Below the pieces are notes generated by a model. It was not told the origin of the DNA, searched no databases, and saw only the letters and a list, made by a program, of their open reading frames with translations. The position numbers were made by a program, and so were the translations under genes. A DNA stretch of 64,000 bases from Scatophagus argus (lineage: Eukaryota; Chordata; Actinopteri; Scatophagidae), in NCBI RefSeq assembly GCF_020382885.2, contig NC_058499.1:20445872-20509871 (forward strand). The letters run 5' to 3'. This document shows, one piece after another, positions 6,631 through 54,285 of the stretch. Position 1 is the stretch's first letter. Each line of letters begins with the position of its first letter.

Positions 6631-9600
6631 ATGAAGAAGAAAAGCAGATGCCCAAGGTCCAGCAGGACACAGACAACAGTGAGCATCAGTGAGGATAAGA
6701 GGCCACCCGGAAACAGAGGGAGGCCACGCAAGACTGTGCCTCTAACCACAGACAGTTTCTACCATGAGAACACTGCAAAAGACAAGACTGCAACCTTCAG
6801 TGTACCAGCAGCTGGCAACACACAAAAACATCCAGAGAGCAAGCCCAAATCTTCAGGTGAGTGCCTCGGTACAAGATTTAATGTGTTGCCTCTTGTCTTG
6901 TAAAAATAGAGTCGTACCAGACGGCATTAAAAAAAAAGGTACTTTGTTCATCTCTGGCTTCCTCACAAAAGACTTCAGTATGACAATGTCTGTTTCTTTG
7001 TTCCTTTGTGACGTCACCAAAATTCTGTTGATCGTAGTAAACAGTGGAAGGTGGATTATCTTCAAGAAGATGCTGCTTTTGGATGAACATTTAATTGGCA
7101 TTTTTGGTTGGAATTTGGTATGATGTCCTTTTCATTTAAATAAAGATCATGTGCTTGAAGTCAAGGTTCCCAACTTGACTCACGGAGACTAGGTTAAAAA
7201 TAACATCCACTTGGTGACTTTGGGTCACTACTGGCAGTATAGAAACACACTGATCTTTGATTTATCCCAGCAGGTAGACTGTCAGCCGCTATCTGTCGGC
7301 TCTGCCATGGAAAGTTTTCTCCACGCAGCCTGCGGCACGCATTCAAGTGGCCTCAGGATTCCATTGATATCATTGACGATGAGTCAGACACCACTTCCCG
7401 ATCGCCCCTTTTATTCCACACAGACTTCCAGCAGCTGGTAGGGGTCCAGTTGGATCGTGACCCACGGTTATCTGAGTTTATCTGCAAAAAATGTCATGCT
7501 AAGTTCTACAAGTGCCACAGCATCCTGATCAGTTTTCTGCAGAGAGTCAACCTCCCTCCAGTTTGGAAAGATAACCCAAAAAGCCGGTAAGTTCAGTTGT
7601 CACTTTTGCAGTGTGTATTTATTGGATAGTTTTCAATTGTTCAGGCAGATAATCTACAAATACAAGCAACTGTTTGTTTCTTTTTCAGGAAGAATGCAAA
7701 GTGTCCAGAGTCCTCAGTAAACCATGACTCAACAAGTAAAGAATTTTTTTTTTCATTTGGCTTTGCTTTTGTTTACAAAAATTACATAAAACACATGTCA
7801 AGCTAACTGATTGCATTACTGTCATTCTGCTGTTTTTTTTTCCCCAGCACCACCATCCTTTACCTCAGACCCTAAGTGCCTCCACAGTCTGGTGTCCTGG
7901 GCTCACCACCACGGAGAGGCCTGCCGTTCCTGCCCCGACCTGAAGGAGGTGCTGGAGGGCCAGTGCTGGGGTTCTGTTAAGGCCATTTGGGGTTGCGTTG
8001 ATGGTCACAGATACATCATGGACACTCAGTGCACAACTGCCTCAAAGCCAGGGTACACAAAGAACTTCAGCTGTGGAGTGTTAGGGAGTGGCAATGGTGA
8101 TGGAGTGATGTCAGAGGAGGAAGAACAGGAGGAGGAGGAGGAAGACGAAGAAGAAGAGCAACCAACTGGACAGGCCCCAGTTGGAAGTATTAGCACCCTG
8201 ACTCAACACAGTCCGCCTGAAGTCACAGCACAGACTCAGAGCTCAGCGTTGGCTCACTGGACCGGTAACACTGAAGGTGAGACTGAGATCCAGAGAAGGT
8301 GTGAGGCAGCATCACATAGAAAACTGTCAAAATGTTTGAAGGTCCACAGCCAATACTGTGATTTTCTTTCTTCTGGGGATATGTGATGGATGTTTTTTGA
8401 TGTATTTTTTGATCAAGCACTGTGAAATTGAAATACAAACTATTACTCCTAATAATTAGTTTTCAACAACAACAACCCATTCAGTGTGTTAAGAACTGCT
8501 TGTCTTTCTTATGCCCAAGAGGTTTCTAGCTTCTGAGATTATTTCCTGTGCATGTGGCCCACTGAATATCTGCAATAGTGCTGCTGACCCTCGAGGGCAG
8601 TTAGATAATAATACATAATATATGGATTAAAAAATTACAATATAAAGAGTCATACCTTATTTGCAATTCGAGATATCCTGTCAACAGTTTACAAGCGCAC
8701 CATATAGACAAAAGTATTGGCGCACCCGACCAACCAACAGGGACTTTAATGACGTTGCATTCTAAATACATAGACAACTTTGCAGCTATAACAGCTGGAA
8801 CTAAGGGTCCTAGCCAAACCCCTGAAAAGCAGCCTGTCTGGATACTTTGGTCTATACAGTGTATATCTGGGGTCATAGAATTTTTTTAACTGTAACACCA
8901 CAAGTGGCCACTGGGCAAAACTAGAAGCAAAGCTGAGCAGCTGTGCTGTTTCCAGGATGGGTTTTCAGTACATGTTTAGTAATACTAACAGTATAGCTCT
9001 AAGGATAGCAGTCTTGATTTTTGGTGATGCAGTTTAATGTGTGTGCTGATCTGTGATCTGTGTGTTACATTTAGTGTCTACACTTGCCTTGTTCATGAGA
9101 TGATTTTTGAACTGTTTTATGCATACTAGTCCTGGTGTTTTTATGGAAATATTAACCTGTTCTTCTACTGCAGATGCAGACCCAAGTGTTAAGCACTCAT
9201 CACCGTGGCTCCTTTTAAGTGTTTGTCTGGCTTGCGGTGTGTCTGTATGGATCCCGGACTCACACTGTGGTGGTTTCCCCTCCCTTAGATTTTACAGGTC
9301 ATAACGAGGCGCTGTCTCTTGCTCCCGCCCGGCCAGAGGACCAGGCTGCTGACAGTGATCTGTCTGACAGGTTGGTTACGCTGTTCATGTTTCTCACCTG
9401 ATTCTGTCTTTCCCATTGTCTTATAACCACCAATTTGTGGGGTGGACGCAATACTTGTAGATTAGTAAGTACTTTTCAGCCTGTAAAGTGACTGAAATCA
9501 AGTGATCGAGACTGACAGAAGGCCGTAACTGTGTGTGTTTGTACAGGGTCATCTCCGAGGATGATATAGAGGAGAATAGAAAAGAAGGGTTATCAGATGA

Positions 9601-16100: not shown

Positions 16101-19100
16101 GTGTGTCAGCTTTGATTTCTCTTCAGATTTAAGTGAAGTGATTCTCACTCTCAGGAAGTGTGCTGTTAGATGGCAGGACAGCAAGCCAGCTGGGGAGCAC
16201 ACGTTCCTCTGTAGAATGAGCAGAAGGAGAGGAATTCAGACAAGGAAAAAGAACACACACACACTCATGACTGCACTTTTCCAGACAGCTGATGATCAGA
16301 AATGCCAGAGAAAAAATTCAGCACCTCACCTGATGCTGGTTGACATGTTCTATAAGCTGGTTACACTCCAGACTCGTCCTTCCTCCTTCAGTCTTTACCT
16401 TAATGAATAACACCGCTGGGAGAGCCAGCAGTACTCTGTGAGACACACACACACACACACACACACCAAGTTTTCAGCGGCTACGTATTATTTGACAGAG
16501 ATGATCTGCATGATATATTTGTGTGTGTACCTGTTCCATGTGTTCACAGTGTGTTGCAGGCTCAGCTTGGTGCTGATGCTTGGTGAAGCTGACGTCACTG
16601 TGGACAAGCATCTCTCAGACACCAAATCAAACAGGAAGTCATGCACATCAGCTCTGCTTCTGCCAGACAGGTCGGTCACTTCCATCTCATAGACAAGTTC
16701 CTGTAAACAAACAAACACACATGCCCTCTGATACTCATTACACATCTGCTTCTTATACACAGCTTTTCCCCCATTCATATGAATGTTAAGAACCCCGACA
16801 TCACTATAATAAACTGTTTTTCTTGTGTCAGCGTACACACCTGTACTCTGGACAGGATGTCTGGCAGACAGGTCCCAGTTTCTGACACTCTGTTGTCTAG
16901 TTTTCCCAGGGTCTGATTGCTGTTGACACAAAATACACAGAACAGTAAAACTTTTACAAAAGGTAGAAATACAGGTGTATTAAATATTTTAAAGTCCTTC
17001 AGGCTACTACAGTATGACTGTTGGGCAAATTCACACAATATATTGTATTATACTGCACTATAATAAGCTATATCATGTTATATGTTTGCTTATACATACA
17101 CATATGTATATTACAATTAGTAACCCACCAGTTATGAGTACTGTATGTGTACTGCTGCCTGTATTTTTGTGCTGTGTCTAATTGCTCTTGTAAAGTTTGG
17201 TTTTATCATATTCTTTGACATTATTATACTCTTATACATTTTTAATGATTTATTCTCTGTAGAGTCTCTACTTAACTATTTACTTATTCTGTCCTTGTGT
17301 TACTGTAACACCTGAATTTCCCCTCTGGGAAAGGACTAGCACTCACAAACTGTCCTCTTGCATCTTTTTATTCTTATTTCTATTTTATTTTTACTAAACA
17401 CCTCAGACAGTTGGTTCTTTGTTTCCCTAAACACGTGTTTTAATTAGGTTGCTCCTGATGCAGTCCAGCTGGGAGCTGAACCACCAACCCTGCCACAGTT
17501 AAAAAGAAATCTATCACAATTTGCTGTCTTTGGTAAGTTTGTGCATTAAAAGCATGAATTACATTCATACAAGATTTTACTGTGAATATGTATGCAAAAC
17601 CTTAAATGCTGATCCATGACAGCATTAAGCAAATGAGAGCAGAGCTTCTTCATGTCTCCTCCACAGCCTCCCTGCTCCTCTGGTCGAGGCAGGTAGAGTT
17701 CGAGGCAGGCCCACTGCTGGTACTCCTGACTACACACACACGCACACACACACAACAAATAACAGTTATTAGCTGTGCTGACTTTATTTCCAATGTATGT
17801 CAGATGGCACCTGTAAGTGTGTGTGTGTTTCCTGTCTTACCGTTCTGGGTCTGACAGGGCGTCTTCACTTCTGTGTACTCTGAGCTCATTAGCGAGCCAT
17901 TCTGAGAGCAGCAGCTTGACAAACAAAACAGAGGTTTTGTTGTCAATAGGATCGACTGCTTTCCGATGCACACTGAACATGATCTTCTACACCATTAAAC
18001 ACTCACTGAGATAAGGCTTCATTCAAACCAAACGACCCAGTGGAGCCATGTTTTACCTGATACTGTGGTATGTCTCCCAGCAGACGGAACGCAGGGTGTC
18101 TCCACAGACACCAAGCGGTCTTCCTCCAGGTGCTGCCGGCGTCTGTGGCGCTGCTCCACAGGCCGGGCAGGCTCTCCTCCTGGTATTCAGCAACTGGACC
18201 ACCAGCAGAGATGGGAGCTCTTCTGGCTTCAGGCAACAGTCTTGGGATGAGGTACAGAAGCTGAACATACACACAGTTATATGGAGAGTTAAAGCAGTAA
18301 AAATAATATTGTCAGAAAATAAAAAACTTACAAACACGTGCTTTGTGCTTCATTGGAACTCATCTGACTGTTTGATCTGGTGTTTTTATTGACCACTGCA
18401 GCAAATAATCTGTGGGGTAGATGACTGAACATCTGCTTTGGAGTGTGTGTCAAGGAATAGCATATATTAACATGTTCAGTAAACTGTATGAGCAGTACCT
18501 TTTAGTGTATGCGGCCTGCTAAAACAAGATGAACTGATTAATCAGTTGACAGAAAATAAATTTTCTTTTTTGATAAAAAGATTAATCTTTTAAGTCATTT
18601 ATTAAGAAAAAAGGCCAACCCTACTCTGGTTCCAGCTTCTCAAATGTCAGAATCCACTGCTTTATTCTATTTTATGTTATGTTATCGTCACAAATTCAGT
18701 ACCTTTGGATTCTGATAAGGATGCAAATCTTGGCAAATAAACTGCACTATTGACTCTTTTTTTTAAGAATGTGAAGATGAAGATGAAAATTTGTTAGGGG
18801 TATCAAGAGTCGTTTGTCTTCTGTCCACAGGTTGCTGCTGTTGTAGTTGAGTATCTGGATGTCGCCTATTCAGGTGAGTTCGCAAATTCGTTGTGTTCCC
18901 ACAATATTTAACACAAACGTGACAAAGCTTGCAAATGGCATTTCCCATGTCCACATCGTTGGTACCTGGTTTGCTGTAGAATCCAAAGTGTGCCCACACA
19001 TCTGCTTTAAAATGCGAGGGAGCCGCTCTTAACTTTTCCACGGTCTCAGCCATGTTGGACTTTCTCTAAAGTTCCCTCTTAGTGACCGCCGGACCACCGA

Positions 19101-24300: not shown

Positions 24301-26428
24301 TGTCATTACAGGTTCATCTAATATACAACACATATCTTTAGCCCAGCAAAGTGAGGTTATTGTTAACCTCAGTAATGTTTCAGAGTCGGAGACATAAGCA
24401 CAGGGTCACCTTGAGGTACTGTGAGGGTTCAAAAGGCACCAGGTCTGAGAGGAACTTCAGCAGAAACACCAGAGATTTCTTACTGGCTGCATGGTAGCCG
24501 CTGCTTCCACAGAAAGACATCTGAAAAGGCAAAAGAGAGTAATGCTACTGGTAAAAATGACAAACTTCTTAACATTAGCAGCATCAATTCAAATATATTA
24601 ATAAACTCTGAGCTGTTGCAGAAAAGTCGATACGAAACCTTGAACCAGTCGCTGTAGGAAGGGAAGATGCCGGGTCCCTCCAGCGCACCCTGTCGAGCCA
24701 ATAGGAATGCAGTTATCACGTTCTCCAGGTCGTAGCCTTCAAATGCAGAAGTCAGCAGTCTGGCCAGCAGCTCTGAAGGACGAAGAGAAACACAAGATTT
24801 TTAACACTGAAGTCAGTACAGCCACAAGTCCTTTTTACAACTGCCTGGTTTGAAACCAAAGTCTAATTGCTGTTAGTTTGTGCTTCCCTTGTGTATATAC
24901 GAGTCTGATATATTACTTTACTGGTGTTGGAAATTAAGTTTTAATAGAAGAGCTATTTGCTAAATAAATCACACAACTACAAAACTGCTGACACATGTCC
25001 ATTCTAATGTGTGAATCTGAATAAACACGAATGATAAGCTTTTATTATGCTGGTTTTTAGAGAAAACACAAATGCTTTAGCATAACAGTGGATAACAGTG
25101 GACATTGCATTTCAATATATTTATTCTCAGCACAAAATAATGGCCCCTTTTTTTAATCCACTATAACTAGTTTACCTTTGAGGCTGGACTGGGCACATGG
25201 ATTGTAAACCAGCAGAGTGGACAGGAAGCACAGGACGTGTTTCCAGTTAACCTCATGGGTTTCCAAAACCTGCTGCAGGTGAGACAGCAGCTGCTCCACA
25301 CTGAATATCACAGCCAGCTTTTACAGAAACACAGCAGCGATACAGAGGAGTTACAGCTTGTTGGAGCTAAGAACATCATCTCAGATAAATCAATACTCTC
25401 AGTGCTGTGTTGCTCTGGTCTGAAGGCTGTACACCTGAAGGCTGAAGTGATCTGACTGCTGTCGACAGCTGAGGAGTGAGGCTTGTAACTGCTGACTGTT
25501 CTAATGTTATGCTATTTTTTATTTTAATATAACACAGATATACAGAGTCATGCACTAGGAGAGACATCAGCTAGCAGTCAGAAATCCACAGATGGCTGTG
25601 AAATCCAAAGGCAAGAGAGAGTGACAGACTGAGAGCAGAGAATATTTATGAGAAGCTAGAAAATTGTTTAATACACGTATACGCTCTTACGTATAAAAAG
25701 TAATTTTAATCTTGGCAGAGCTCATTATATGTGAAGGTTTCCACACACACAGACACACGGCTGCATGGAAGATTTACCTTACGGAAAAGAGAGGTCATCA
25801 GTCGGCTGGATTTTGCAAAGGTCCACTCGTTCTGCTGAGCGATGGCATCTGAAACTGAGGACATATTATTTCATTTTTACATTCAACTTTTTGGAAATCA
25901 TCTTTGTTATCATTATGCATGATAATATTGGCACATCATCTGTATCAGCGGATAATGGCTTTATAATGGAATATTGGCATCAGCAAAAAGTTAACATTTC
26001 TGCCAAAGCACTGAGTAAGTAAGTTAAGTTCTTATGTTGCACAGTGAACATGTGCAATTTTAAAAGTGTTGTGTATCTGCATCTGCCAGTTGGCTATTAC
26101 TGCCTAATATATGAGATTCACTAAAGGACAGATTTGATGTTCCTGAAATTAGGTGGAAGTGCACGCCTGTGTTTTAAAGTGAAAATTAAGTGTAAGGGTT
26201 ATAAAGAAAAAACAGCATTAAGCTGACAATAAGTTGTTTTTACCTGTTAGTCGAGGCTTGTACGTGAGGGTCTGTGTGAGGGAGTGTGTGAAGAAACACT
26301 GAAGGGTGTCTGCTGACGCTGACACTCCACACAAAGAAGCATCAAAGATCTGTATCCTGTACAAAGCACAGAGCAGAGGAGTAAGAAACAGAGATAGATA
26401 GATTGACAGATAGATAGATGGATAGATG

Positions 26429-37314: not shown

Positions 37315-38736
37315 TCAAGCGTCACTCCTGGGGACGGCAGGTCCACACAACCTTCGCTGGGCAAAGTACCCCAGAACGATGAGCAGCATCTCAGAGGTGC
37401 TGCTGAGGGCCACGATGAAGGGTGCCTGGGAAGCAAAGTCGGCCTCCGACCGGCGGAAGGACAGCTGCATGACAGCGAGTGCCAACAGGCTGTTCTGGAC
37501 GCCCACCTCTATGCTGACCGTCTTCCTCTGTGGTGGAGCCAGACCTGCCAGCTTGGCCAGTACGGCCCCAACGACCAGCCCCAGCAAAGGCACCGTCACC
37601 CCAACTGCCACGATCTGCGGCTTCACGTTGGCCAGGATGGACGCACCCATTTGGTAGGCCATGAAGATACCACCTATGATGAGCACGAAGCTGAATGGTC
37701 TTATGAGTGTCAGCAGGACACGTGTGAGAGCGGGCAGGCGCAGCTTGACCAGCATGCCCAGTGAAATGGGGATGGCAATGAACAGGAGGGTGCCGAGTAT
37801 CTTCACAAATGGCACGTGTAGGGCAGCATGGACGCCAAGCAACCGACCATACAGAGCTGACGACAAAGGCATGGCCGCTGCCGCCACCACTGTGGAGACC
37901 AGGGTCATGGAGATAGCCAGGGTGACGTCTCCTCCGAGCAGCAGGCTGTACAGGTAGCCACCCCCACCACCTGGGGCAGAGCAGGTGATGATCAGGCCCA
38001 GTGAGAGCGCTTTGGGCAGTAAGGCCAGCCGGGATACACAGTAGGCATACAATGGCATCACTAGAAACTGACCCAGCACCCCTAAGAGCAGCGGCACTGG
38101 GCTCCTCAGCAGACCCCTCAGAACCTCCACCTCCACCTTGCACCCGAAGGCACACTTGTTGACAAAGATGAGGGGCAGCAAGGCAAATAGCACAGGGTTC
38201 TCAGAGAAATGGGACAGACCACCCGACTGGATGAGCCGGGTGGCCGGGTCATCACTACCAGGCGCCACTTTGATGGAGTAATCCGTCCTCTCTTCAATCA
38301 GTACCGGAACTGAATCCTGGTCCAGGTCCAGCAGCTGGATCTCCAGCTGAGCCTTGCCTGGGAACCCGGAGCGGATGCTGATGATGTAGCTCTTGGATGA
38401 CCCTGCGTGGCCACTATCCGTCACATTAAGTATGGAGAGGACCTCTGGGTCCATAGACCGGACTCTCACCGTCTGCTTCCAGCTCTGTCGGCCCTTCCTG
38501 CTGGCCGCGGCGCTCCGGTACTGGCTGGAGATTACAATCACGCCATTGGTGTTTTCTGGAAACTCAAATTCCTGCGATGACCCGTCTCCTATTCTGATAT
38601 ACTTGCTACTGCTGCTGCTGCCGGCCGTCAGGTTGGTGTCGTTGCTGCTATCGACAGTCAGGTTTCCGGTGGCCCACGCCCGGTCCGCTCCACGGGTAAA
38701 AAGGAAGAGACAACAGAATGTAAATAGCGTCCTCAT
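37315..38736 (-). CDS. slc10a3: Solute carrier family 10 member 3 (P3 protein), 473 aa
   Basis: An orphan member of the sodium/bile-acid cotransporter (SBF/BASS) family, in the plasma or an internal membrane. The whole protein is one uninterrupted exon. Residues 1 to about 22 form a signal peptide, followed by an extracellular Ser/Asn-rich segment with several N-glycosylation sequons (NLT, NDT) and the IGDGSSQEFEFPE block typical of the P3 protein. From about residue 185 there are eight or nine hydrophobic helices with the family signatures HFSENPVLF, PLIFVNKCAFGCK, CSAPGGGGGYLYSLLLGGDV and VSIEVGVQNSLLALAV. Length is within a few residues of the human protein. SLC10A5 was considered, but the conserved blocks fit SLC10A3 better. 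GC content is well above its surroundings. The substrate is unknown in the family. Confidence 0.95.
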   Translation of the reverse strand: MRTLFTFCCLFLFTRGADRAWATGNLTVDSSNDTNLTAGSSSSSKYIRIGDGSSQEFEFPENTNGVIVISSQYRSAAASRKGRQSWKQTVRVRSMDPEVLSILNVTDSGHAGSSKSYIISIRSGFPGKAQLEIQLLDLDQDSVPVLIEERTDYSIKVAPGSDDPATRLIQSGGLSHFSENPVLFALLPLIFVNKCAFGCKVEVEVLRGLLRSPVPLLLGVLGQFLVMPLYAYCVSRLALLPKALSLGLIITCSAPGGGGGYLYSLLLGGDVTLAISMTLVSTVVAAAAMPLSSALYGRLLGVHAALHVPFVKILGTLLFIAIPISLGMLVKLRLPALTRVLLTLIRPFSFVLIIGGIFMAYQMGASILANVKPQIVAVGVTVPLLGLVVGAVLAKLAGLAPPQRKTVSIEVGVQNSLLALAVMQLSFRRSEADFASQAPFIVALSSTSEMLLIVLGYFAQRRLCGPAVPRSDA

Positions 38737-39240
38737 CTTACCGACGCACAGAGGCGGAGGGGCGCCGCAGAGACACGCTTCTCCCCCGCCAGCGGCCTCA
38801 AACGGTTACACCGCCGCCCTGTTACACCAGGAGGGTAAATTTATCATTCTAGTCTCCGGAAGAAAACGACAGCGTCGGCAGCCGACTCCACATCTCGTCT
38901 GGTTCCCATTTTCTCGCTGTCTTTATACCGGAACCTAAACATCACCCCGCCCTGTCCTGTCCAAGCCCAGCTCTACGACAGCAGTCCCCGGCACACAGGA
39001 AACACTCACACAGGTCTCTCACGGCTTGTCTTGTGTCTGCTCGGTACTAAGATGTATGTCTTCTGAAACTAAAGTCTCGCTTCGTCTTCCGTTTTTAGCC
39101 TCTCCCCGGGTGATGAAGACTGAGAGCATTGTAGCTCAGCCGCCGTCTGCTTGCTGCTCACAGCTATTTTGGTAAAGTTGGATTTAGTAAAAGTCAAACT
39201 TCCGGTCGTGAACGGCCAAAATAAAACCCTCTCATTTAGG
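38737..39240 (-). promoter_or_regulatory. slc10a3 5' region, CpG-rich
   Basis: Relatively GC- and CpG-rich DNA directly upstream of the slc10a3 ATG. It probably holds the promoter and 5' UTR. No single start site can be picked from the sequence. Confidence 0.4.
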
Positions 39241-43859: not shown

Positions 43860-50017
<6,158 letters not shown>

Positions 50018-50160
50018 GTCAAGACGAGTATGGTTCCAGATGATGACAGGAAAAAATATCGTTCAGCTCTCTCAACAAACTAGTCAAGATTTTGTTTTGA
50101 TACAACCGTGTATCTGACGCACAACGTACTTCCTGATCCAACAGCAGTCACGTGATCAGA
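50018..50160 (-). promoter_or_regulatory. chmp1a promoter region with CACGTG site
   Basis: The chmp1a 5' UTR and promoter lie just upstream of the ATG. GTCACGTGAT at 50147-50156 is an E-box/CLEAR-like site. No TATA box is seen. Confidence 0.45.
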
Positions 50161-51400
50161 CCCCCCCCCACTCCACTCCCTCCCCTTCTTCGTGATATAT
50201 TTTTGGCGGTTGGTGAACAACGAAATGGTGCATTACCGCCACCAGCTGGTGAGAAATGCGAATCGGGAAACTTGATCTACAGATAACCAAAACAACAACC
50301 ATCATATTTTCTAAACTGAATTCATCCTCCTCAGACAAAAACCAAAACCTCCTGAAATTATTTTCAAAATATAACATGAATCACATGAATCAAAGTAGGT
50401 TATAGTTTCATCTCTTTGAGGCTCTGAAATAGATACTCTCACCTTCATATCTTTGACAATGATTTTTAAAATATTTTTTTCAGAATTTTCCTGTTTTTCC
50501 CCCCTCCTAAAGTCTGAAAGAGTAAACGCAAATCCACATTAATTGACTGAATTCTCTGAAGCATCTGTTTAGACCTGGGTATAATTGTTTTTGTGACTTC
50601 TATCTATCCATGTAAAATCTATGGTTGGATCTCCCAAGTTTCAGTGGTTGTAGTGCTGGTACAGATGCACTAGTTTTAATATTTCTTGTTTTGTTGCTCT
50701 CAGGTTGTTCCCTTCTCTCCACACCCCAATAATCTAATGCCGATCTGATCTGATTAATGCAATATGAATGGTCCTCAATGAAATTCTTTGTGTTTTCTTA
50801 CATGTTTATAACCTTGGAAGTCCAAACCTCAGAAGTTTTTTTTTTCTCTACAATTCTTGATTATGTCATTTTAGTTTTAAATGTCTAATCTAATAATTTT
50901 GTAGAACATTTTCTTGCTTTAACCACTGAATTTAAAATCTACATAAATGACCACTCCTCAACTTTCCCAATAGCTTTCCTTTTCTCCCAGTCACTGAATG
51001 TAAAATTGATGGTAATAATAAAGTACACACTATAAACTTCCACCCTTCATCCACTTACACATGCGACCTTTTACCCACGCACATCTTAAATGTAACCTAA
51101 TTTGAATGGAAGGCGAGATTGTTAGCTGGACGGACTCATGAACACTGTGGGTCGTGTCCGCGCGTGGAGTTCACACCAACACTCCGCGCTTTGCCGCGAT
51201 TTTACTCACGTTGCCACTCAGCTGCTTCACGCAGTTATGGTTAGCTCACGTTTTTCCACAAGATCTTCATAAGGTTTTCGTGAGGCTCATTTGACTGAAG
51301 CTTCCTCACAACTTGTCCCTAGCAGAGAAGCGTGTTTTCTTTCGAAAGCGGTGTCCAGGCTACAGGCTGCTGTGGCCTATGAGGGATAACGTCAGTGTGG
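50161..51400. other. Intergenic between chmp1a and the chmp4-like gene
   Basis: AT-rich DNA in the left part with no gene. CpG content rises at about 51150-51200, which probably marks the promoter of the chmp4-like gene. A CCACCAGCTGG sequence lies near 50240. Confidence 0.5.
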
Positions 51401-51460
51401 TTATACTGAGTGCAGGACCAACCTCTGTCAATTGAAGTGTCGCTTTGTGTTTCAGACAAA

Positions 51461-53570
51461 ATGTCTTTATTTGTTAAGATGTTTGGTGGAGGAGAAAAGG
51501 TGAGAAAGAAGCCCTGCCAACAGGAGGAGATCGAGAAACTTCCAGAGAGAGAGGAGTTGCTGATGAGAAAGAAAGAAATTCTGAAGAAAAAGATTGACCA
51601 GGAACTTTTGTTTGCCATGAAAAACAGCAGAAAAAATAGGAGAGGTGAGATATTTTAAATGAAGTTGCATATTCCTACTGTAATTCTTTAATAAACATAC
51701 AAGTAGCCGCATAAAGCTAATGTGAATGTTAGCTGACGTATAGCATGCTGTTAAGCTAGCGCGCCGGCTAACTGCTGATTGACGATGCAACCAAAACCAC
51801 TGTAAGCTAACTTAAATTTAGTAGAAGTAGCTGCTTATCCAGAAGTACATTAAGGTGTTGGCCACAGCTATGAAACAAGTGTAATTGACCTTTACTGTGG
51901 TCTACATAAAGAAGTCTTGAATTTAAATAATATAAATACATACTGTATATACAGGAGGCAAGTTAAGATAGCAGACACACATGATCTGAAATTAACACAA
52001 TAACTGAGTGCCGCTTCTAAAATTATGGTTTATTGGTATGGTTAATTGTTGTTTGTAGTTTTATGTTTTTTTGGGGGGGTTTTTTGTTTGTTTTTTGCCG
52101 TTGTCTTACTTTGTGGCCACTGTAATGACCTTGTTTTATGGATTATTACATTGAAACTTTAAAATCAAGAGAAATCACTGAGAGCCGTTAAAGGTAGCAC
52201 TGCCAGTGTGTAAATAGAATAGCAAAATGTCTCAATGAATCACCTGATACTAAACATTAAGAGCAACTGCATCCCAGACAGACATCCCAGTCGTGAGGTC
52301 AGCTGCAGGCTTCCCTCACAGAAAACATACAGTATCACATACAGCTGTCATTACACTGAACTGTCTGATTTTAAGATATAATGGCTCAACACTTGATTAC
52401 TGTAACCTTGCTGTTTTGCTGGAAAAATCCCATGATTCTGTCTTTCTTTTCACTCTGTTAAGTACTTTCCAATTCTTATTTTCCATCTCATCGTGCTCTC
52501 CTCCCAGGGGCTCTGCAGGCTCTGCGAAGAAAAAAGTGGTACGAAAAACATCTCAAGTACATTGACTGTGCTGTTAAGGCCATGAGATCTGCTCATGAAC
52601 ACACGTAAGACGAAAGATATCAGCAGCGAGGTCGTTTGAGTTAATGATGTGCATCAGAGTATAATGTATGTTCATATTATCTATTTACAAATGTTAGCAC
52701 GAGCTTGGATTCATTTCACATCCACTGTTATGAACATCCTCATGTTGTATACCTACATACTAATATAGTTTTAAAGAAAACTTTAACTGGAACACAAACT
52801 TTGCGCTGGTTGTTTCAGAGATATTATCAACAAGGTGAATGACCTGATCAAAGACCTCACTGAGGAGAAGGATCCAACTCAAGACTTATCTGAAGCCCTC
52901 TACACATCTGTGGGATTCGGAGTGGAATTTGATGAGGTACAACGAGATTTTATTTCAGTTTTCAGACATTTTAGACATAGACTTTGGTTATTTGTATGCA
53001 TTACATTGATATATAAAAACCAGCCAGCAGGATCATCAGAATGATACAGTTTTACAGCAAGAACTCACAGCAAGTTTTTGTGGTGATCTTGATAAGATTT
53101 TTTTTTTATGCTGTGGGTGTGTGTTTACCTCAGAATGAGATGCTGGCAGAGCTGCAGAAGCTGGAAAAGAATCTAGACAAGAGTCTGTTTGAGAAGGACA
53201 GAATAGAGGAGAAAGTCTCTTGTCCCAGTGAGTCCCTGCCTGGTAAGGACCATGTGGTACAAAACACGCTCACTGGTTAGTGGGTAAAGCAGAGGATTAT
53301 CAAACCTTAGATCCAACTGCAGCACGTGACAGGTAACCATTTGGTAGTATGACGCTGCAGTGGTCAACTTCACATTAGTGAAGTAACTGGAAAACTGATG
53401 ACGACATCCTAGAATTACTATAATACAGCAGAAAGGGCAGTTGGCTGTTGTATCAATCAATCAATCCAAATTACTCACAGTTTTTTCTCTCCTTCAAAGC
53501 CAAGACAGAGGAAGACGAGGTTGAAGATGATTTAGAGTACCTGCGGCGCTGGGTGAACGAACCCTTGTAA
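51461..53570 (+). CDS. Divergent CHMP4-like ESCRT-III protein with an internal deletion, 192 aa
   Basis: A member of the SNF7/CHMP4 family, whose usual role is to form the ESCRT-III filament. Coding exons: 51461-51644, 52508-52604, 52819-52936, 53134-53242, 53500-53570; phases agree and no frame is broken. The protein starts MSLFVKMFGGGEK, as CHMP4s do, with a basic first helix, then GALQALRRKKWYEKHLKYID, VNDLIKDLTEE, VGFGVEFDE and NEMLAELQKLE. The acidic C-terminal helix ends YLRRWVNEPL, resembling the Bro1/ALIX-binding helix. Between YIDC and VKAM about 27 residues present in remembered CHMP4A/B/C sequences are missing within one continuous exon. A 5' noncoding exon is likely, because an acceptor (TGTTTCAG) lies 5 bases before the ATG. 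It could be a lineage-specific paralogue; I do not assign chmp4a, b or c. Confidence 0.85.
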
Positions 53571-53696
53571 ACACACCTTCAGCCACAATGCGCTGACATT
53601 AAAAGGAAAAGGTGAATGTGCAGGCTGTAATAATAAATAGGAAGAAATAATATGTTATTGTTCATAAGTTTCATGTTTGTGCGCACATTGAACTCT

Positions 53697-54016
53697 GAAG
53701 TCTCAATGAAAACGAACATGTAATTAAATCTAATGTGAGGCAGACACTACTGTATACTGTAGTAAAGTATGAGCTCTATAATACATACATGTTAACATTA
53801 CTACATGACTTTATGATGTGGTACACCAAGTCCCCTTTATGATGACGGCAGTTTGTACAGTTTGTATTATGCCTCAACCCTCTACAGTGAAGTCTCAATG
53901 AAAACGAACGTGTAATTAAATCTAATGTGAGGCAGACACTACTGTATTTATACTGTAGTAAAGTATGAGCTCTATAATACATACATGTTAACATTACTAC
54001 ATGACTTCATGATGTG
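53697..54016 (+). repeat. Tandem duplication in the chmp4-like 3' UTR
   Basis: Positions 53697-53820 recur at 53889-54016 almost unchanged (the second copy has a 4-base TTTA insertion and a few substitutions). They are separated by a 68-base spacer that itself recurs at 55537-55589. Confidence 0.95.
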
Positions 54017-54279
54017 ATATGACCTTATCTGAACTTGGCAACATGCATTGTCCCTGTCCCCTCAACCTCTCGTTTCAGCTACGTGTGCCTAGTTGAACAG
54101 CCTCCTCACCAGTGGCTCTTATTGTTTGGTTTGTTACTACAAATTGGTCTTTTTTTTATGCATGGGCTTTGCTGCAGCTGAGAAGCTTTGTTCTGGGTTT
54201 GTGAAACACAGTGTTGGTTTCATCCTGTTGGTTTTCCCTCCTATAAGAGTTTGTGTTTCAAGTTTCTGAATGTTACAAA

Positions 54280-54285
54280 AATAAA
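54280..54285 (+). terminator. Polyadenylation signal of the chmp4-like gene
   Basis: AATAAA about 710 bases past the stop at 53570, after the tandem duplication. An earlier AATAAA occurs near 53632. Confidence 0.45.

Follow-up and report, generated by a model that had tools for sequence, protein, structure and literature searches.

Membrane fission by ESCRT-III is driven by the polymerisation of CHMP4, and the locus described here raises the question of what a CHMP4-type gene can still do once it has lost a segment of the helical core that is nearly invariant among its paralogs. The gene lies in a window (the whole stretch of DNA that was analysed) of 64 kb from Scatophagus argus, C7:20445872-20509871, which is without any N. 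The reading put forward, tentatively and with a probability of about 0.48, is that of an old duplicated chmp4b copy beside chmp1a, which is still coding and whose product is unable to make the normal filament contact, modulating instead the assembly of ordinary CHMP4. A natural, frame-keeping CHMP4 without its core segment would be a ready test for a genome-encoded filament terminator in vertebrates, and also of which contacts metazoan CHMP4 filaments need, the Snf7-like hydrophobic or the Shrub-like electrostatic ones. If it were instead a dying duplicate, it would still be a clear case of core loss after duplication, although of modest interest.

Gene structure and the missing core segment

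The chmp4-like gene occupies 51461-53570 of the forward strand, and its five coding exons (Table 1) give a coding sequence of 579 nt, including the TAA stop, and a product of 192 aa. The eight splice dinucleotides are all intact, with GT/AG at the four introns, and the intron phases derived from the exon lengths (1,2,0,1) are identical to those of three intact chmp4 paralogs of the same genome. The five-exon CHMP4 layout, the intact splice sites and frame and the Bro1-binding-like C terminus that a sequence-only reading of this DNA had claimed are thus borne out, the last of them by an L..L..W pattern which is still in place in the sequence. The product belongs to the Snf7 family by its Pfam PF03357 score (43.6 bits against a cut-off of 27.3) and matches CHMP4B chains at E values of 1.2e-14 and 8.4e-13, the latter being the match of residues 97-189 to chain 3um3_B. 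The frame of exon 1 is open, and this exon is recovered in the own-genome protein search at E = 6.5e-31. Five other segments of the window are of the same CpG grade as the one upstream of the ATG, and three of those five lie, when positions are compared by eye, at the starts of chmp1a, of an SLC10A3-like gene and of a zf-BED frame. In the 3' region of the gene, a near-exact tandem duplication is seen at 53696-54019, with blocks of 60 and 71 nt and a repeat spacing of 192-196 nt; the blocks are 97-98% alike, so the duplication is a recent one.

Table 1. Positions of the chmp4-like gene, its parts and its ESCRT-III neighbour within the window
Feature	Position	Strand	Description
chmp1a	46217..50017	-	exons read; product matches CHMP1A chain 13gm_C, E = 2.2e-95; Pfam Snf7
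CpG-rich promoter-like segment	50901..51420	.	directly upstream of ATG; o/e up to 1.08, window mean 0.36
Coding exon 1	51461..51644	+	MSLFVKMFGGG...KNRR; encodes an anchor-like N terminus, alpha1 and a loop; proline P28 is new in alpha1
Coding exon 2	52508..52604	+	97 nt; alpha2 start fused to alpha3 end; 178 nt in all three paralogs
Junction zone of the 81-nt deletion	52550..52569	+	equal-scoring cuts after 43-48 and 58-61 nt of exon 2
Coding exon 3	52819..52936	+	DIINKVNDL...EFDE; alpha4; one residue longer than C8 and C3 paralogs
Coding exon 4	53134..53242	+	NEMLAELQKLEK...SLP; covers the alpha5/MIM-like region plus the linker; 18 nt less than in C8
Coding exon 5	53500..53570	+	AKTEEDEV..DLEYLRRWVNEPL, stop; acidic run plus Bro1-binding-like tail
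3' UTR segment that aligns to the 3' UTR of C8 chmp4b	54073..54208	+	65%
AATAAA, possible polyadenylation signal	54280..54285	+	five AATAAA/ATTAAA sites follow the stop, this being one

A protein search of the species' own genome (570.7 Mb, 48 contigs), in which the best 15 candidates were scored, so that counts are lower bounds and more chmp4 genes are possible, finds at least three intact chmp4 genes besides the chmp4-like one, at C8:17.04 Mb (221 aa), C3:24.9 Mb (221 aa) and C18:8.6 Mb (227 aa). Separate normal chmp4 genes, whose presence the sequence-only reading had left to be checked, therefore exist in the same genome, and no second copy of the chmp4-like gene appears at E <= 0.001 among those best 15 candidates. 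The C8 gene adjoins frames which by eye resemble EIF2S2 and an SR splicing factor, a neighbourhood that we take to fit chmp4b, and we infer that it is this gene, while the C18 gene is probably chmp4c.

All three paralogs carry GTLSTIEFQREALEN..TNTEVLKN.GFAAKAM in an exon 2 of 178 nt. Since the same exon measures 97 nt in the chmp4-like gene, exactly 81 nt (27 codons) have been lost, in frame, and the stretch from ID to KAM spans 3 residues against 30 in the paralogs, which is the gap that had been claimed. The length differences to C8 for exons 1-5 are +3, -81, +3, -18 and +6 nt, all of them multiples of 3. The best protein-level cut takes out GTL...LG or TL...GF, and the breakpoint is ambiguous over about 7 codons, the DNA matching C8 at 75 of 97 nt for a cut placed either after YID or before LKYID. 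The later cut is preferred by the protein-level score, and at the earlier one C8 has a 5-bp repeat, GCTCA, exactly 81 nt apart. The piece from GTL to LG is the best conserved stretch of the three paralogs, which agree at 24 of its 27 residues. A hidden exon that supplies the missing piece, an outcome against which the claim had been set, is rejected, as a tblastn search with the three paralog versions of the missing peptide finds none in the 64-kb window (best E = 0.16). The in-frame core deletion in a CHMP4-type gene is real within this assembly.

Origin and selective constraint

The sister of the chmp4-like gene is C8 chmp4b; kinship with C18 or C3 instead is rejected, being 6.7-6.8 lnL units worse with two omegas and about 9 worse with one. 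Homology to C8 extends from the ATG to the 3' UTR, and no 3' UTR match to the C3 gene is found at E <= 0.01. When the 23.5-kb C8 region is compared with the window by blastn (E <= 1e-4), no intron homology appears beyond the exon edges: the 7 matching pieces correspond to the five exons, with short flanks, and to one 3' UTR stretch, so that duplication of a larger block is rejected, and a retrocopy is ruled out by the four introns. Because C8 is its sister and the homology runs from ATG to 3' UTR without intron matches, the best reading of the gene is that it was copied long ago, at the DNA level, from one chmp4b gene.

The most serious rival, which is nevertheless somewhat unlikely, proposes that this duplicate is becoming a pseudogene, that is, that selection long held the frame and was then relaxed, the core deletion being one item of damage in a gene whose protein has no role. 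Stops, frameshifts and broken splice sites, the damage by which a pseudogene is recognised, are absent from the chmp4-like gene, and the charge pattern and the CpG-rich start are kept. The simulations that bear on this cover all the divergence from C8, including what arose on the C8 side itself: in a neutral simulation that starts from C8 with a load of 0.87 substitutions per codon, the fitted neutral branch (4000 runs), 5.5 stops are expected against the 0 present (P(0) = 0.003), a test that weakens at lower load, with 7.6% of simulations lacking a stop at 0.3 per codon; and in a second simulation (5000 runs) K/R would be kept at 16.0 +/- 2.6 and D/E at 24.8 +/- 3.1 positions under neutrality, against 23/28 and 33/43 in the gene. 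The hydrophobic class, kept at 42/49 against a neutral 37.4 +/- 2.9, is marginal (P about 0.08).

The rate of protein change gives this rival its strength. In omega fits on the four-gene tree (179 gap-free codons), free branch lengths give the window branch an omega of 0.43, with 0.04 on the remaining branches, which improves on a single omega by 2dlnL = 27.5; this fit fails to reject omega = 1 for the window branch (2dlnL = 2.5), some branches being saturated. Capped branches give 0.36 against 0.08, with a bootstrap 5-95% range of 0.22-0.82 (60 resamples) and a 2dlnL of 7.2 against omega = 1, although the likelihood of this fit is lower than that of the free one. Relative to its paralogs, the protein has thus been changing at about 4 to 10 times the rate. 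Among the 46 codons that are identical in the other three genes, 29 have changed on the window branch, 23 of them non-synonymously, and the Pfam Snf7 score falls from 198 bits for the C8 product to the value given above; the segment lost is, moreover, the most conserved one. Of 147 paralog-invariant positions, 70 are kept, 27 deleted and the rest changed, the kept share being 6/7 in the N-terminus, 9/12 in the first part of alpha2, 8/19 in alpha4, 7/14 in alpha5/MIM and 4/7 in the tail. Given this share and the omega values, the constraint on the sequence is weak, yet the frame has been held. The earlier statement that the gene does not look like a decaying pseudogene is therefore favoured by its frame, exon lengths, splice sites, charge pattern and CpG-rich segment, and is qualified by its dN/dS, which is below 1 in the capped fit and not distinguishable from 1 in the free fit; recent relaxation toward a pseudogene is possible.

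Probable consequences for filament assembly

In the Snf7 filament, according to Tang et al. 2015 (PMC4720517), each alpha2/3 packs against alpha3 of the following protomer, alpha1 contacts the next alpha2/3 through R25/H29/K36 with E95/E102/E109, and the loss of the hydrophobic contact positions mutated there and of E95 and E102 stops filaments in yeast Snf7. The Snf7 letters and numbering were checked against PDB chains and matched to the fish genes by hand alignment; on this basis at least Snf7 residues 83-102 are missing from the chmp4-like protein, wherever the cut is placed. Of the 13 hydrophobic contact positions mutated in that work, 7 are missing on any cut (T83, M87, Q90, I94, A97, L99 and L101), and the later cut raises the number to 10 by adding T103, M104 and M107. 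The equivalents of E95 and E102 are gone as well, while the partner face in alpha1 carries K, R, K in the hand alignment. With 27 residues absent, there is no complete alpha1-alpha2/3 core with its longitudinal contact surface, so that the protein is not classed as an ordinary CHMP4 subunit despite its chmp4 descent and gene structure, and the published interface map supports the loss of the Snf7-type contact.

Other parts of the protein are retained to different degrees. The N-terminal part resembles the membrane anchor and is well kept, and the tail conserves L..L..W, but with the modest share of invariant positions given above, as a predicted Bro1-binding helix. The new proline P28 of alpha1 falls on the position of Snf7 R27 and, counted by hand from the hairpin turn, would lie about level with the alpha2 deletion, as might be expected if both arms of the hairpin had been shortened. 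In yeast, alpha4 recruits Vps24 (PMC6663469), and alpha4 is there but diverged in the chmp4-like protein; since alpha4, alpha5/MIM and the tail have all diverged, partners may be lost too.

The model favoured here proposes that the 81-nt deletion, which slippage between short repeats may have caused, took distal alpha2 together with the first part of alpha3, and that the protein would fold as a short alpha1/alpha2 hairpin in which alpha2 continues directly as the last part of alpha3. It would retain its Bro1-binding-like tail, its N-terminal anchor and the basic start of alpha2, but would no longer offer the next protomer an alpha2/3 surface to stack on. Because this surface is gone, the most likely role is that of a terminator or modulator, which would join or touch CHMP4B filaments, or compete for the Bro1 domains of ALIX-type proteins, without propagation. 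The modulator, the dominant-negative form and the filament of different spacing that the sequence-only reading had suggested are candidate roles. An intact frame together with the loss of the most conserved 27 aa of the filament-building part makes a modified regulator likelier than a normal filament subunit. The most likely outcome is thus a subunit that is one-sided and does not propagate, with an altered co-polymer as the main working alternative.

That alternative, a rather improbable one, is that the protein can still use the metazoan electrostatic contact to join CHMP4B, giving filaments of different spacing or curvature. The fly and human contact has been described as electrostatic, including R63-D83 of CHMP4B (PMC9320689, section 2.2), and R61 and D81 of the chmp4-like protein occupy these positions in the alignment, so that an R63-D83-type contact may be retained; this speaks against the favoured model, since ordinary co-assembly is then conceivable. 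Likewise, the exon 2 peptide is predicted, from the single sequence with no alignment, to form one helix that passes through the junction without a break (residues 2-31 of 33, mean pLDDT 83.6), along which the hydrophobic direction drifts gradually over the join. Against this, the remainder of the alpha2/3 face is gone, and with the earlier cut point D81 would not be the ancestral aspartate.

A bolder form of the favoured model, which is doubtful, sees in the gene a dedicated chain-terminating CHMP4, long kept in a fish group, that would halt the growth of CHMP4B filaments by entering them or by occupying Bro1 proteins. It might in this way restrain virus budding or abscission, and it might share its regulation with chmp1a. 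Finally, it is very unlikely that the species has the 81 nt and that this sequence lacks them because it was misassembled or represents one rare haplotype: the 5-bp repeat that C8, the closest paralog, carries at 81-nt spacing would fit such a loss, but the deletion is exactly in frame, the length differences to C8 in the remaining four exons are multiples of 3 as well, no alternative copy occurs among the best 15 candidates of the 48-contig search, and 81 nt within one exon is short for modern reads.

Known ESCRT-III duplicates and neighbouring genes

The gene resembles CHMP4B, Snf7 and Shrub in descent, five-exon structure, intron phases, a Pfam Snf7 score above cut-off and the pattern of N-terminus and tail; it differs from them in its faster evolution and in the absence of 27 residues from the alpha2/alpha3 core, where Snf7 has its main longitudinal contact surface. 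With RetroCHMP3, reportedly described by Rheinemann in 2021 as a retrocopy truncated at the C terminus, it shares being a duplicated ESCRT-III subunit changed in a part needed for normal assembly. RetroCHMP3 is intronless and cut at the end, whereas the chmp4-like gene keeps four introns and a complete C terminus and has lost an internal piece. Like CHMP4C, the regulatory paralog of the abscission checkpoint, it is a chmp4 duplicate that may restrain CHMP4B, and antagonism between isoforms is discussed in PMC7618577. CHMP4C, however, works through a phosphorylated serine-rich insert, and its likely counterpart here, the C18 gene, has a full core, while the chmp4-like gene groups with C8 chmp4b. 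No published account of such a shortened chmp4 gene was found in the literature searched, which reaches few of the subscription journals, and passages of two fish papers (PMC3853555, PMC8992836) name other CHMP genes only. Regulatory or inhibitory ESCRT-III duplicates such as CHMP4C and RetroCHMP3 are already known, but among the literature searched no account appeared of a variant that has lost part of its core internally and retains both its ends.

The chmp4-like gene and chmp1a are two ESCRT-III genes placed head-to-head, with 1444 bp from ATG to ATG according to their coordinates. Each has its own CpG-rich start segment, at 49741-50320 for chmp1a and at 50901-51420 for the chmp4-like gene; as these are separate, a shared promoter is rejected, and co-regulation with chmp1a is only possible. 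Together with the chmp4 set, the genes of the window (chmp1a, the zf-AD gene, FANCA and the SLC10A3/P3-like carrier) would suit a teleost. Elsewhere in the window, a single open frame of 496 codons at 37318-38805 on the reverse strand matches an NTCP5/P3 N-terminal domain and an SBF domain, and is apparently an intronless SLC10A3/P3-like carrier gene. A frame at 18766-19065 on the reverse strand, with a CpG-rich start and a Pfam zf-BED match (E = 2.6e-10), is possibly a domesticated transposon piece, lying in the same stretch as the FANCA and zf-AD genes. These two are represented by a Fanconi_A_N frame at 24483-24800 on the reverse strand, which corresponds to FANCA, and by a zf-AD frame at 7261-7587 on the forward strand, which resembles ZNF276, both in the window that holds chmp1a; human ZNF276, FANCA and CHMP1A also lie close together, on 16q24.
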